A DNA stretch of 64,000 nt from Brenneria bubanii. Lineage in GTDB: Bacteria; Pseudomonadota; Gammaproteobacteria; Enterobacterales; Enterobacteriaceae. A program made the position numbers and the translations under genes. The first letter of the stretch is position 1; each line of letters opens with the position of its first letter. Where the stretch lies: the NCBI RefSeq assembly GCF_022378355.1, contig NZ_JAKMAJ010000005.1:124001-188000 (forward strand), read 5' to 3'. Positions 15,546 to 29,542 of the stretch are shown here, piece by piece. The notes under the pieces are model-generated. The model did not search any database, was not told where the DNA came from, and saw only the letters and a list, made by a program, of their open reading frames with translations.

Positions 15546-16835
15546 TTAAGCCCCTCGCCCCACGACGCCGGCGGTTTCCATCACCGCGTGCAGCAACACA
15601 TTCGCGCCGGCCGTCACCTGCTCGGGCGAGGAATACTCGATTTCGTTATGACTAATGCCGTTCTTACACGGAATAAAGATCATCCCGGTGGGCGCCAGTT
15701 CCGCCATATAAACGGCGTCGTGACCGGCGCCTGAGACGATATCCATGTTGGAGTAGCCCAGCGTATCGGCCGCCCGGCGTACCGCATCCTTGCAGTCGGG
15801 ATGGAAAGGCGCGGCATGATATTGAGACACCTGCGTCAACTGAATATCCAGCCCGGTTTCCGCACTCAGCTCGGCGAGATAAGTCTTTAGCGCCGCATCC
15901 ATCTCGTTCACCAGCGCATCGGTAAGATTGCGGAAATCGATGGAAAACTTCACGCTGCCCGGCACCACGTTACGGCTGTTGGGATGCACCTGCACCATGC
16001 CGACCGTGCCGCGGCCGTGCGGCGCAAAGCGATCGGCAATCGCAATCACCTCCTGCATGATGCGGGTGGAAACCTGCAACGCATCCTTACGCAGCTCCAT
16101 CGGCGTCGGCCCGGCGTGGGATTCCATGCCGGTGACGACGCAGTCATACCAGCGAATGCCCAGTACCGCCTGCACTACGCCGATTTCAATGTTCTTGTCT
16201 TCCAGAATCGGCCCTTGCTCGATGTGCGCTTCGAAGTAGGCGCCGATCGGGTGATCGCCCGGCGTTTTCGGTCCGGCATAGCCGATTTTCTCCAGCTCGT
16301 CCTTCACCGTTTTACCGTCCACATCCTGTGCCGCATAGGCGAGCTCTATCGGGAAGATGCCGGCAAACACCCCGGACCCCATCATCACCGGCACAAAGCG
16401 CGATCCTTCTTCATTGGTCCAGAACACCATTTCCACCGGCGCATTGGTTTCGATTTTATTCTCATTTAGCGTACGGATGACTTCCAATGCCGACAATACG
16501 CCGAAGTTGCCGTCAAACTTCCCGCCGGTCGGCTGGGTATCGATATGGCTGCCGGCGACTATCGGCGGCAGATCATTATTACGCCCGGAGCGGCGCATGA
16601 AGACGTTGCCGATTTTGTCGATTTCAACCGACAGCCCTTCGGCCTTCCCCCAACCGATGACCAGATCGCGGCCCTGGCGATCCAGATCGGTCAGCGTGAG
16701 CCGGCATACGCCGCCTTTCGGCGTGGCGCCAATCACCGCCAAATCCATCAGTGACTGCCACAGACGATCGCCGTCAACCCGCAGATCGGTAATATCGGTT
16801 TTATTTTTCGTTGTAGATAACACGTCGCTATTCAT
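15546..16835 (-). CDS. M20-family amidohydrolase, probable beta-ureidopropionase
   Basis: A 429-residue Zn-dependent hydrolase of the allantoate amidohydrolase/N-carbamoyl amino acid amidohydrolase group. Metal ligands of the bimetal site are visible: GSHIDTQPTGGKFDG (His, Asp), TNEEGSRF (Glu-Glu), EAHIEQGP (His) and NGISHNEIEY (His). The dimerisation/substrate segment GMESHAGPTPMELRKDAL is typical. As the last gene after preT-preA-dihydropyrimidinase, it should hydrolyse N-carbamoyl-beta-alanine to beta-alanine, CO2 and NH3. Allantoate or L-carbamoyl amino acids are alternatives by family alone; context makes the pyrimidine role much more likely. Confidence 0.87.
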   Translation of the reverse strand: MNSDVLSTTKNKTDITDLRVDGDRLWQSLMDLAVIGATPKGGVCRLTLTDLDRQGRDLVIGWGKAEGLSVEIDKIGNVFMRRSGRNNDLPPIVAGSHIDTQPTGGKFDGNFGVLSALEVIRTLNENKIETNAPVEMVFWTNEEGSRFVPVMMGSGVFAGIFPIELAYAAQDVDGKTVKDELEKIGYAGPKTPGDHPIGAYFEAHIEQGPILEDKNIEIGVVQAVLGIRWYDCVVTGMESHAGPTPMELRKDALQVSTRIMQEVIAIADRFAPHGRGTVGMVQVHPNSRNVVPGSVKFSIDFRNLTDALVNEMDAALKTYLAELSAETGLDIQLTQVSQYHAAPFHPDCKDAVRRAADTLGYSNMDIVSGAGHDAVYMAELAPTGMIFIPCKNGISHNEIEYSSPEQVTAGANVLLHAVMETAGVVGRGA

Positions 16836-16892
16836 AACAGATTTCCTTATGGGTGGAGTGAAGCTACCTTCTTGATCTCAACGATGTTGCGC

Positions 16893-18344
16893 TCAACGCG
16901 GCACGGCCGTGGGCGCCAGCAGACGTTCCCGCAGGGCGCAGGCGCTGAAATCGGCGTTAAAGGCCGGGCGCTTGATATAACGGCCCGCGCCTTGCTGCGC
17001 GCGCAGGTCGCCATCGGCCCAGACCAGGGTTCCCTGACTGACCGTATATCTCGCGATACCGCGTACTCTACGGCCTTCAAAGACGTTGAAATCGTTTCTT
17101 GAATGATGCGTTTTGGCCGACAGGGTTTTGCTGCCGTTGGGATCCCAGACCACCAGATCGGCGTCGGCGCCAACCGAAATCCGGCCTTTACGGGGGTAGA
17201 TATTGAATAAACGGGCGGTGTTGGCGGAGGTGATCGCCACGAACTCGCTGGGAGTAAGACGTCCGGTATTCACCCCGGCGTCCCAAATAACCGCCAGCCG
17301 CTCTTCCACGCCGCCGCAGCCGTTGGGGATTTTGGTGAAGTTGCCGTCGCCGGCGGCTTTCTGACTGGCGCAAAAGGTGCAGTGATCGGTGGCGGTGGTG
17401 TGCAGCTGACCGGACTGCAACCCACGCCACAGCGACTCCTGATGCGCTTTAGGACGAAACGGCGGGCTCATGACGTGCGCGGCGGCCTTGGCGAAATCCG
17501 CATCGCGGTACACGCTGTCATCCACCACCAGATGACCGGCCAGCACCTCGCCGTAAACCCGCTGACCGCGCGCCCGTGCGCGGGCGATCGCCTCGGCCGA
17601 CTCCTGACAGGAGACATGCACCACGTAAATCGGCACGCCCAGCACGTTGGCGATCGAGATGGCGCGACTGGCCGCTTCCCCTTCCACTTCCGGCGGACGC
17701 GACAGCGGATGCCCTTCCGGCCCGGTGATGCCGCGCTTCATCATCTCCTGCTGTAACAGAAATACCATTTCGCCGTTTTCGGCATGAACGGTCGGCATTG
17801 CTCCCAGCTCCAACGAACGGCGGAAACTGTTCATCAGCGTTTCGTCGTCGCACATGATGGCATTCTTATAGGCCATAAAATGCTTGAAGCTGTTAACGCC
17901 CTCTTCGTTCACCAGCGTGCCCATATCGCGATGGACGCTGTCATCCCACCAGGTGATGGCGACATGGAAACTGTAATCGGATGCCGCTTTTTGCGCCCAG
18001 CCGCGCCATTCGCGGTAGGCTTCCATCAGCGGCTGCTGCGGGCTGGGGATCACGAAATCGATAATGGTGGTGGTGCCGCCCGCCAGTCCCGCCGCGGTTC
18101 CGCTGTAGAAGTCGTCTACCGTGACCGTACCCATGAAGGGGAAATTCATGTGGGTATGGGGATCAATGCCGCCCGGCATCACGTACATGCCGCCCGCCTC
18201 GATCACTTCCGTGCCTGCCGGCGCGTCACGGGCGGCATCCTCGCCCACCGTCACGATAATGCCGTCGGCACAAAGCACATCGGCGCGAAATTCGCGATCG
18301 GCGTTAACCACCGTACCGCCTTTGATTAACAAGTTATGACTCAT
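16893..18344 (-). CDS. hydA: Dihydropyrimidinase (D-hydantoinase)
   Basis: A 483-residue cyclic amidohydrolase that opens dihydrouracil or dihydrothymine to the N-carbamoyl-beta-amino acid. Metal-site residues are present: [13 protein letters not shown] (HxH), [12 protein letters not shown] (carbamylated Lys), PTVHAENG (His), YVVHVSCQ (His) and TTATDHCTF (Asp). TNTARLFN-like [17 protein letters not shown] and the C-terminal [10 protein letters not shown] are typical of dihydropyrimidinases rather than allantoinases. It starts 180 bases after preA, the gap holding a double hairpin, and is followed 57 bases later by the amidohydrolase. The enzyme is cytoplasmic. Confidence 0.93.
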
Positions 18345-18407
18345 TATTTACCCCTCGCTATTGCTGCTTCTGACCGCTGATAAAGTTGGACGCTTGGCCG
18401 TAAATGT

Positions 18408-18487
18408 CCCCGGCCAGCCGCCTCCTTGCCGGGGAGACGTCAACGACCGTTTTACCCCCCTCCCCGACGAAGGGGAGGAATGGGGTA
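18408..18487. repeat. REP-like double hairpin between preA and hydA
   Basis: Two G/C-rich inverted repeats are adjacent: CCCCGGC/GCCGGGG (18408-18434) and CCTCCCC/GGGGAGG nested in TACCCC/GGGGTA (18453-18487). They sit inside the gap between two co-directional genes of one pathway, so they may stabilise the upstream message or trim downstream transcription. Whether this is a genome-wide repeat cannot be told from one copy. Confidence 0.45.
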
Positions 18488-18524
18488 GGAGCCGGACTCA
18501 TCGCCCGTCAAACCCCGTCGGCAG

Positions 18525-28487: not shown

Positions 28488-28642
28488 CTTTTCATCCTTA
28501 TCGGTACGGGTTACACTGTAAAAAGCCTTCTGTTTCAATAAGATTGCCTTTTTCTGGTAATCACACCACGCAACGCAATGCTTATTGGAACCAGACTAGG
28601 GATAAAAAGGCCAACGTTGATAGAGCCAGATCGCGAATAACT

Positions 28643-28661
28643 ATGGGTCAGTTTGTCCCAT
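28643..28661. promoter_or_regulatory. Palindromic operator candidate ATGGGTCA-GTT-TGTCCCAT
   Basis: A 19-base interrupted palindrome with eight-base arms and a single mismatch, located between the divergent aminotransferase and ydfG-like genes, well placed to control both. It does not match the RutR consensus, so another regulator (for example a GntR- or MocR-type protein) may be involved. Confidence 0.5.
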
Positions 28662-28690
28662 CGATTCCGCGTAACTGGCCCTATCGAGGC

Positions 28691-28718
28691 GCTTTTCCAC
28701 TCCGTAAAGTGGAAAAGC
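28691..28718 (+). other. Perfect hairpin in the ydfG-like leader
   Basis: GCTTTTCCACT and AGTGGAAAAGC form a perfect 11-bp stem around a six-base loop, 65 bases upstream of the ydfG-like start. There is no U-run. It may be an mRNA leader structure or a second operator. Confidence 0.45.
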
Positions 28719-28783
28719 AAGGGCAGAAGGCTGCCCGAATCGGGTTACAAAACGGTTTATCCAACTTTAGAAGGACGTTTTCG

Positions 28784-29542
28784 ATGCAGAATATTGTGTT
28801 TATCACCGGGGCAACATCCGGATTCGGCCAGGCAGCAGCACATCATTTTGCAGCTAATGGGTGGTCATTAATTATTACCGGACGGCGGGAAGAACGATTG
28901 AAGGCGCTGGCGGATGAGCTATCGGACAAAGTGCCGGTTTACTATTCCGTGCTGGATGTCAGAGATGCGCAGGCGGTGAAAAAGCTGGTCGAGACGTTGC
29001 CAGCCGAATTTAAAGCGGTGAAAACACTGGTCAACAACGCCGGCCTGGCTTTGGCGCCCCATGCGTCGCAAAAGGTTGAACTGGAAGACTGGCATACCAT
29101 GATCGACACCAATGTCACCGGGCTGGTCAACGTCACTCATGCACTATTACCCACGCTGATTGAAACCGGCAAAGGCGCCAGCATCATCAACCTCGGCTCT
29201 ATCGCCGGACAATGGCCATACCCCGGCAGCCACGTTTACGGCGCCTCAAAAGCCTTTGTGAAACAGTTCAGTTATAACCTGCGTTGCGATTTGCAGGGTA
29301 CCGGCGTGCGGGTCACCGATTTGGCGCCCGGCATTGCGGAAACCGAGTTTACCCTGGTCAGAACCAAAGGCGATCAGGACGCATCGGACAAACTGTATCG
29401 GGGAACCACGCCGCTCACCGCGGAGGACATCGCCGGACAGATTTACATGATCGCGACCCTGCCGGACCATATGAATATCAACCGCCTTGAGGTGATGCCG
29501 GTACGACAGGCTTGGTCGCCCTTTGCTATCGATCGTGATTGA
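28784..29542 (+). CDS. YdfG-like NADP-dependent 3-hydroxy acid dehydrogenase
   Basis: A 252-residue short-chain dehydrogenase clearly in the YdfG group: [18 protein letters not shown] (cofactor motif), [20 protein letters not shown], the Ser of [20 protein letters not shown] with YxxxK (VYGASKAFV), and [10 protein letters not shown] at the end. YdfG reduces malonic semialdehyde to 3-hydroxypropionate in E. coli pyrimidine catabolism. I chose ATG 28784 because AAGGA lies eight bases upstream and it aligns with YdfG. Similarity is moderate, so it may be a paralog dedicated to this island rather than the housekeeping ydfG. Confidence 0.85.

Follow-up and report, generated by a model that had tools for sequence, protein, structure and literature searches.

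A reductive pyrimidine island and an adjoining aminotransferase–reductase pair in Brenneria bubanii: a candidate two-module system for nitrogen scavenging

A 64,000-nucleotide stretch of the Brenneria bubanii genome (contig NZ_JAKMAJ010000005.1, positions 124,001 to 188,000; hereafter the window) carries a nine-gene unit transcribed from the minus strand in the order ATP-binding cassette (ABC) ATPase, two permeases, NMT1-type substrate-binding protein (SBP), TetR-family regulator, preT, preA, dihydropyrimidinase (PydB) and M20 carbamoylase (PydC). A class III aminotransferase gene lies past the ATPase gene, and a gene for a short-chain dehydrogenase/reductase (SDR) diverges from it. All of these genes had been named in a first-pass annotation made from the letters of the DNA, and all are intact open reading frames (ORFs) with matching or nearly matching coordinates (Table 1). 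Two gene starts call for correction. The aminotransferase start was moved to near 28487 (the queries used here started one codon later, at 28484), and the ATPase is taken to begin at 26681, not 26756, because the ATG there is conserved and the extra 5' stretch of the ORF holds a conserved promoter. The explanation favoured here, with a probability of roughly 60%, is a two-module nitrogen-scavenging system, in which the nine-gene unit (module 1) would provide a uracil route and the aminotransferase–SDR pair (module 2) would convert beta-alanine to 3-hydroxypropionate (3-HP).

Table 1. Features of the pyrimidine island and its surroundings, in window coordinates (bit scores are given with the cut-off of the profile)
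Feature	Position	Strand	Basis
pydC, M20 amidase, predicted beta-ureidopropionase (N-carbamoyl-beta-alanine amidohydrolase)	15546..16835	-	family matches; substrate from context
pydB, dihydropyrimidinase	16893..18344	-	TIGR02033, 593 bits, cut-off 393
preA, dihydropyrimidine dehydrogenase FMN/4Fe-4S subunit	18525..19829	-	PRK08318, 724 bits, cut-off 335
preT, dihydropyrimidine dehydrogenase NAD(P)H/FAD subunit, GltD-like, overlapping preA	19822..21237	-	similarity and context
RutR-like operator TTAACCATTTGGTCAG, upstream of preT	21403..21418	-	13/13 preT loci; one of two exact genome matches
sigma-54-type promoter TGGCACATAAATCGCA, preT operon	21436..21451	-	13/13 loci; 0.15 expected
TetR-family regulator, RutR-like, under RutR cut-off	21867..22523	-	profile match
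ABC SBP, NMT1/THI5 type, predicted pyrimidine binding	22735..23748	-	profile match, solved relatives
ABC permease	23874..24980	-	profile match
ABC permease (second)	24977..25852	-	profile match
ABC ATPase, start corrected from 26756	25842..26681	-	profile match, conserved ATG
RutR-like operator CTAACCAAACAGTCAG, ABC operon	26707..26722	-	17/17 loci, by eye; exact genome match
sigma-54-type promoter TGGCATGGAAATGGCA, ABC operon	26740..26755	-	17/17 loci, at most 2 mismatches
conserved tandem TTGC-type elements, possible NtrC sites	26827..26866	-	by eye
class III aminotransferase (PRK06062; Toa/PydD family), predicted beta-alanine (or taurine) aminotransferase	27156..28487	-	profile, solved relatives, tree
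inverted AGAGCCAG...ACTGGCYCT element, aminotransferase–SDR intergene	28622..28682	.	single copy in genome
SDR reductase, IsfD type, predicted malonic semialdehyde / sulfoacetaldehyde reductase	28784..29542	+	identity to solved IsfD-type relative
sigma-54-type promoter, MocR gene	30804..30819	+	14/14 loci; 0.19 expected
MocR-type regulator, candidate regulator of aminotransferase–SDR pair	30860..32353	+	near pair in most loci

Module 1 brings together genes for dihydropyrimidine dehydrogenase, dihydropyrimidinase and beta-ureidopropionase, the substrate of the last (PydC) being assigned from context. PreA and PydB exceed their curated equivalog cut-offs, while PreT falls short of the cut-off of each of the 25 families shown, its best score being 327 bits against 516 for PRK12771. 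No RutA above cut-off was found in the genome, the best match reaching 78 bits against 498. Motifs that we take to be catalytic are present in the SDR (YxxxK), the aminotransferase (lysine), PydB (HxH and FKHF), PydC (metal motifs) and PreA (NFGCPHG and 4Fe-4S); one further PydC pattern, H.AG, gave no match. The unit from the ATPase to the M20 gene is almost certainly, in kind, a complete reductive pyrimidine route. The first-pass proposal of such a route with its own transporter is upheld.

The SBP belongs to PF09084 (NMT1), and its nearest solved relatives are 4nmy, whose ligand is unnamed, a formylaminopyrimidine-binding protein (3ix1) and THI5. These relatives suit a pyrimidine ligand without proving one, and the predicted ligand draws on sequence and gene context. 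The best of five AlphaFold models had a mean predicted local distance difference test (pLDDT) score of 79.7 (42-61 for the other four) and was used for no inference; the alignment behind it held one wrong-frame row (L022; here and below, L- and G-numbers denote surveyed loci and genomes, G000 being the genome of the window, and C-numbers contigs). The idea that the NMT1-type transporter belongs to a thiamin regulon was rejected: between window positions 14000 and 36000, nothing scored as high as the gathering threshold of any Rfam family.

The M20 protein exceeds several subfamily cut-offs, including TIGR01879 for hydantoinases/carbamoylases (423 bits against 204) and one named 'allantoate amidohydrolase' (630 against 452), and falls below the AllC equivalog cut-off TIGR03176 (251 against 598). 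Among solved proteins it scores 395 bits with an N-carbamoyl-beta-alanine amidohydrolase (8c46) and 399 bits with an N-carbamoyl-L-amino-acid hydrolase (8apz), and four relatives named just as amidases or hydrolases outscore both. Because of this near-tie and of the higher, generically named relatives, the substrate is not fixed by the protein sequence. Both the dihydropyrimidinase family and the M20 family are promiscuous, with hydantoinases and carbamoylases among their members, and the genome encodes other hydantoinase-like proteins. These features, with the equal scores of the two solved hydrolases, would suit another cyclic ureide such as hydantoin as the ring substrate, PreTA then acting on an analogue and not on uracil or thymine. 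Such a substrate is nevertheless very improbable: PreA exceeds its equivalog cut-off, the regulator and its operator are RutR-like, and 3ix1 and THI5, near relatives of the SBP, are pyrimidine-related, although the nearest, 4nmy, names no ligand.

The same gene order was sought in other genomes, as had been suggested at first pass. Brenneria, Lonsdalea, Prodigiosinella and relatives share the nine-gene unit in this order, interrupted by extra genes in some of them, and it is also present on a Klebsiella quasipneumoniae IncFIA plasmid (NZ_CP091807.1; L046:6159-16456), where insertion sequences flank it and no aminotransferase–SDR pair lies in the 24 kb examined. Three further Klebsiella plasmids match across the TetR stretch, and E. 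coli genomes gave no match to the island in a near search. The arrangement is far beyond chance: Lonsdalea and Prodigiosinella keep the same order, as does the Klebsiella plasmid apart from the last two genes.

Two operator–promoter arrays mark the control of module 1. All 13 preT loci (11 distinct genomes) have, upstream of preT, a RutR-like site that departs from the E. coli consensus at no more than three positions, and a related site, recognised by eye, lies just upstream of the ATPase start at 17 of 17 loci. The consensus used in the operator scans is the one we take to hold for E. coli RutR. A pattern built from both sites, YTAACCANNYRGTCAR, matches the 4.9 Mb genome exactly at two places, the preT and ABC promoters. 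Allowing one mismatch adds 21 matches, which corresponds to chance level because a reversed control pattern with no more than one mismatch also yields 21. A sigma-54-type element whose GG and GC are correctly spaced lies immediately upstream of each operator (Table 1). The element of the preT operon is found in the same 11 distinct genomes, and that of the ABC operon was scored at a stringency giving 16 matches on both strands of the full window. The TetR gene has such an element in 2 of 13 loci. Distinct genomes are counted here and below since some were sampled twice (L013/L083, L014/L084 and L017/L086). Tandem TTGC-type elements upstream of the ABC promoter resemble NtrC enhancer sites by eye.

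As both operons share a RutR-like operator and a sigma-54-type promoter, they are read as a nitrogen-scavenging regulon. The regulator itself carries PF08362 (YcdC-like) and scores below the RutR equivalog cut-offs (TIGR03613, 189 bits against 368; PRK15008, 167 against 230), and is therefore called RutR-like, not RutR; the first-pass label to that effect stands. RutR senses uracil, and module 1 looks like a regulon with the logic of rut, combining nitrogen limitation with a RutR-type sensor, but attached to a reductive pathway. In PMC8743547, the E. coli rutA–rutR intergene is listed among RpoN-selected promoters. A hybrid of the reductive and Rut pathways, as first imagined, was rejected: the operators are confined to preT and the ABC operon, the aminotransferase–SDR pair has a control region of its own, and RutA is lacking above cut-off.

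Turning to module 2, the SDR is 77.5% identical (193/249 aa) to PDB 6ixj, labelled 'sulfoacetaldehyde reductase', with long identical stretches flanking the YxxxK motif. The protein of 6ixj, presumably the IsfD of K. oxytoca whose structure PMC6616044 mentions, in turn shares ~90% identity with the SDR in each of two genomes that have the pyrimidine island. The initial YdfG label does not stand: the protein reaches 304.7 bits against the NF007829 cut-off of 411, is ~50% identical to genuine YdfG, and coexists with a separate YdfG on another contig (G000:C3:114940-115668). In a sample of 119 Enterobacteriaceae genomes from 118 genera (44 of them of at most 2.4 Mb), 11 have an SDR at 76% identity or more and the next group, that of YdfG, follows at ~54% or less, fragments in G037 excepted. 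By sequence, then, the SDR is of the IsfD type and distinct from YdfG. Among the 10 genomes of the genus, G007 alone lacks a YdfG-type match at E 1e-60, despite carrying an IsfD-type SDR.

The aminotransferase has as its best solved relative a taurine:2-oxoglutarate aminotransferase (6jix, presumably from Bifidobacterium) at ~42% identity. A tree of 41 aminotransferases places the enterobacterial group within a set of actinobacterial sequences and a single Snodgrassella protein, and BkToa with Lachnospiraceae proteins; long branches lead to L041, L036, the L040 group and L045. The aminotransferase thus does not group with BkToa (~42%), which was the sole characterised Toa compared, so that it may yet be a Toa of another lineage. 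ORFs are ambiguous at many GC-rich loci of the neighbourhoods surveyed, and the gene contexts marked in the tree were labelled by hand, with 'other' standing for unassigned ones. The actinobacterial tree neighbours L022, L030 and L039 each have a hydantoinase and a window-like ABC set at the locus. Among relatives at ~44% identity, those of Verrucomicrobia (L037, L038) occur with pyrimidine genes, and that of L041 stands beside a protein like acylating sulfoacetaldehyde dehydrogenase (469 bits, cut-off 600). Because relatives occur in both contexts, the wider family, as far as its sequences and neighbourhoods indicate, probably serves both beta-alanine and taurine.

Two of the actinobacterial loci (L022:2951-11296 and L030:3700-11317) combine the same type of aminotransferase, a hydantoinase and the ABC set with a TIGR03842 F420-dependent oxidoreductase of the luciferase-like monooxygenase (LLM) class, which might be a ring reductase replacing PreTA. 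L022 additionally has a CN-hydrolase resembling N-carbamoylputrescine amidase.

Of the 119 genomes, 11 have the aminotransferase, and these are also the 11 with the IsfD-type SDR; PydB (at least 81% identity) occurs in 8, all of them among the 11 (hypergeometric 2e-10, or 1e-8 without the 44 small genomes, both uncorrected for descent). At E 1e-80, PydB matches 26 genomes: the 8 counted, G037, where fragments match at 56 and 74%, and a further 17 whose hydantoinases, at 42% or less, were not counted; one of these 17 is G083, a genome with the pair only. In Brenneria, Lonsdalea, Prodigiosinella and G023 the island lies on the aminotransferase side of the pair. In G081 and the decayed G037 it lies on the SDR side, and in G076 and G084 away from the pair. 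In Brenneria G007 it is split, the pyrimidine ABC genes remaining with the pair. Within the genus, 9 of 10 genomes have PydB and 8 have the pair, the same 8 for both of its enzymes. The decayed copy (L087; G037:C1:3729000-3748900) retains island and pair with most genes frame-broken, in a genome of 49% estimated completeness.

Searches for TauA and for methylmalonate-semialdehyde dehydrogenase (MMSDH) covered 12 chosen genomes, leaving out G006, the eighth with both modules. None of the 7 two-module genomes searched has a TauA above cut-off, against 4 of the 5 others (Fisher 0.01). The pair is judged, at somewhat better than even odds, to convert beta-alanine to 3-HP in vivo, because the pair accompanies PydB in all 8 genomes and TauA is lacking above cut-off in all 7; the enzymes may also accept taurine.

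Several points weigh against this assignment, and most of them would fit a module 2 dedicated to taurine nitrogen assimilation. Toa and IsfD would then take taurine via sulfoacetaldehyde to isethionate, and adjacency to the island would reflect a shared scavenging locus, not a pathway. The nearest solved relatives of both enzymes carry taurine-pathway names, and IsfD presumably prefers sulfoacetaldehyde. The 3-HP end product, while plausible, is unproved because of that label on the SDR relative. The pair also has a control region separate from that of the pyrimidine genes, and 3 of the 119 genomes have it but no close PydB, 2 of these 3 having TauA above cut-off. TauA-like proteins below cut-off occur in all 12 genomes searched; among the two-module genomes, G076 has the highest-scoring one (177 bits against 304). 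Moreover, the genomes in which PydB and the pair co-occur are related, so the p-values overstate independence. Brenneria G003 has retained the island but not the pair: an e(P4) nucleotidase gene precedes its ATPase gene, and all that is left of the aminotransferase gene between the two is a 110-base match. The plasmid island also lacks the pair within the 24 kb examined; module 2 is therefore not required. PMC6616044 describes a Toa–IsfD pathway. A primarily taurine role ranks second and is nonetheless unlikely, given the lack of a TauA above cut-off in the window genome and in any of the 7 two-module genomes searched (though another taurine importer may serve), the 8/8 co-occurrence with PydB, the aminotransferase that is not sister to BkToa, and the fact that the pair adjoins the pyrimidine island in two arrangements.

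A dehydrogenase elsewhere in the genome is a further point against 3-HP. One MMSDH of the IolA type scores above cut-off (G000:C4:194333-195766) and could oxidise malonic semialdehyde instead. The aminotransferase would then deaminate beta-alanine, most of the product would go to acetyl-CoA, and the SDR would be a side route or act on another aldehyde; a uracil-to-acetyl-CoA route reportedly exists in Bacillus megaterium. This fate is improbable in view of the 5 of 7 tested two-module genomes with no MMSDH at E 1e-100 or better, and of the strict pairing of the SDR with the aminotransferase across the sample and within the genus.

The control region of the pair has its own signature. The motif GAGCCAG is found in the aminotransferase–SDR intergene at 16 of 16 loci, and an inverted second arm with at most one change from CTGGCTCT at 14 of the 16, the exceptions being L080 and L081; the paired element has one copy in the genome. 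No sigma-54 element was found in this region at any of 19 loci (16 distinct genomes), and the 400 bases before the aminotransferase hold no RutR-like site at up to three mismatches.

In the window and at 13 other distinct loci, a MocR-type regulator is encoded no more than ~7 kb from the SDR. It was not seen in L012, L020 or G081 (L078, L089), and L085 is too short to tell. Its sigma-54-type promoter is conserved (12 distinct genomes; Table 1), and the MocR gene itself is likely, on this motif, to be nitrogen-controlled. The AGAGCCAG arm of the pair recurs before MocR in the non-Brenneria loci L079 and L082, and with one change in L080 and L081, though not in L077 at that limit; it is followed by TGTGTCAG, which resembles TGTGACA of the pair's own intergene. 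Because of this recurrence, MocR is the likely regulator of the pair, with beta-alanine or taurine as an effector it could sense. The link is weaker in the lineage of the window, since the region upstream of MocR there lacks the AGAGCCAG arm.

Other genes accompany the locus. A lipoprotein e(P4)-type 5'-nucleotidase is encoded between the SDR and MocR (window 29684-30514), with no match in the other loci surveyed for gene order apart from the G003 gene mentioned above. A dipeptide transporter operon follows MocR (window 32544-38390), with DppA and DppC above their equivalog cut-offs. On the other flank, a DUF4432 protein with a signal-peptide-like start lies beside a LacI-type regulator (window 12585-13793), and homologues occur near the island in Lonsdalea (L086) and in G007 (L094). 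In L080, an M20 carbamoylase 66% identical to PydC stands beside MocR (L080:15152-16423), in a genome without a close PydB.

In the two-module system favoured here, module 1 would import uracil or a related pyrimidine base through its ABC transporter and, by ring reduction (PreTA), opening (dihydropyrimidinase) and decarbamoylation (the M20 enzyme), would yield NH3, CO2 and beta-alanine. Its two operons would be transcribed under nitrogen limitation from sigma-54-type promoters, gated by the RutR-like regulator, which probably leaves the DNA upon binding uracil. In module 2, the aminotransferase would pass the amino group of beta-alanine to 2-oxoglutarate, recovering the second ring nitrogen as glutamate, and the SDR would reduce malonic semialdehyde to 3-HP for excretion. 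The sequences themselves show the gene content, its conservation, the operator and promoter motifs and the co-occurrence of the modules, from which the substrates, the specificity of import, the effectors, the role of MocR and the end in 3-HP are inferred.

If correct, this would explain how these enterobacteria could gain both nitrogen atoms of uracil, would give an enzyme pair annotated from taurine work a second, pyrimidine-linked role, and would predict that plant-associated Brenneria and Lonsdalea give off 3-HP as waste. Should the taurine role hold instead, an annotation error would be corrected and two nitrogen-scavenging modules set apart. The compact regulon of sigma-54 promoters and a RutR-like repressor is open to test, and the nine-gene pyrimidine unit has spread to a Klebsiella plasmid. 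A bolder and rather doubtful extension is that the enterobacterial pair of Toa-type aminotransferase and IsfD, the characterised K. oxytoca IsfD lineage included, was originally and is mainly a module of reductive pyrimidine catabolism that salvages the nitrogen of beta-alanine and ends in 3-HP. It would then be a Gram-negative, non-orthologous counterpart of the Firmicutes PydDE, with taurine as a later or side function.

Several known systems resemble parts of this locus. In the literature covered, which was partial, no paper on this island in Brenneria was found. E. coli Rut shares the RutR-like regulator and operator and the sigma-54-type promoter control, and differs in that Brenneria has no RutA above cut-off, opens the ring reductively and has a regulator below the RutR cut-off. 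E. coli YdfG, a 3-hydroxy acid dehydrogenase, belongs to the same SDR superfamily branch, but the window SDR scores below its equivalog cut-off and a separate YdfG is present. The Toa–IsfD system of taurine nitrogen assimilation, known from Klebsiella oxytoca TauN1 and Chromohalobacter salexigens (PMC6616044), comprises the same two enzyme families, whereas the Brenneria pair is linked to pyrimidine genes in a genome without TauA above cut-off.

The closest parallel is the Lysinibacillus pathway of PydABC with PydD and PydE, which likewise takes uracil to beta-alanine by reduction, opening and decarbamoylation and continues with an aminotransferase and a malonic semialdehyde reductase. Yin et al. 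are said to have described PydD and PydE in 2019 for Gram-positive bacteria, with 3-HP as a proposed waste product and release of the second nitrogen. Lysinibacillus PydE is reportedly a metal-dependent alcohol dehydrogenase and would differ in family from the SDR. In PMC7332683, PydE is listed as a malonic semialdehyde reductase beside malonic semialdehyde dehydrogenase, a published branch overlooked by the first-pass statement that reductive pathways usually end with the dehydrogenase. The Brenneria island has an NMT1-type ABC transporter, sigma-54 and RutR-like control and a separately controlled module 2, which may set it apart from that system. The 3-HP end of the Pyd pathway was therefore already known; what seems to differ here, judging from the genes and their order, is a Gram-negative lineage that would use an IsfD-type SDR for the last step under a regulator of its own.

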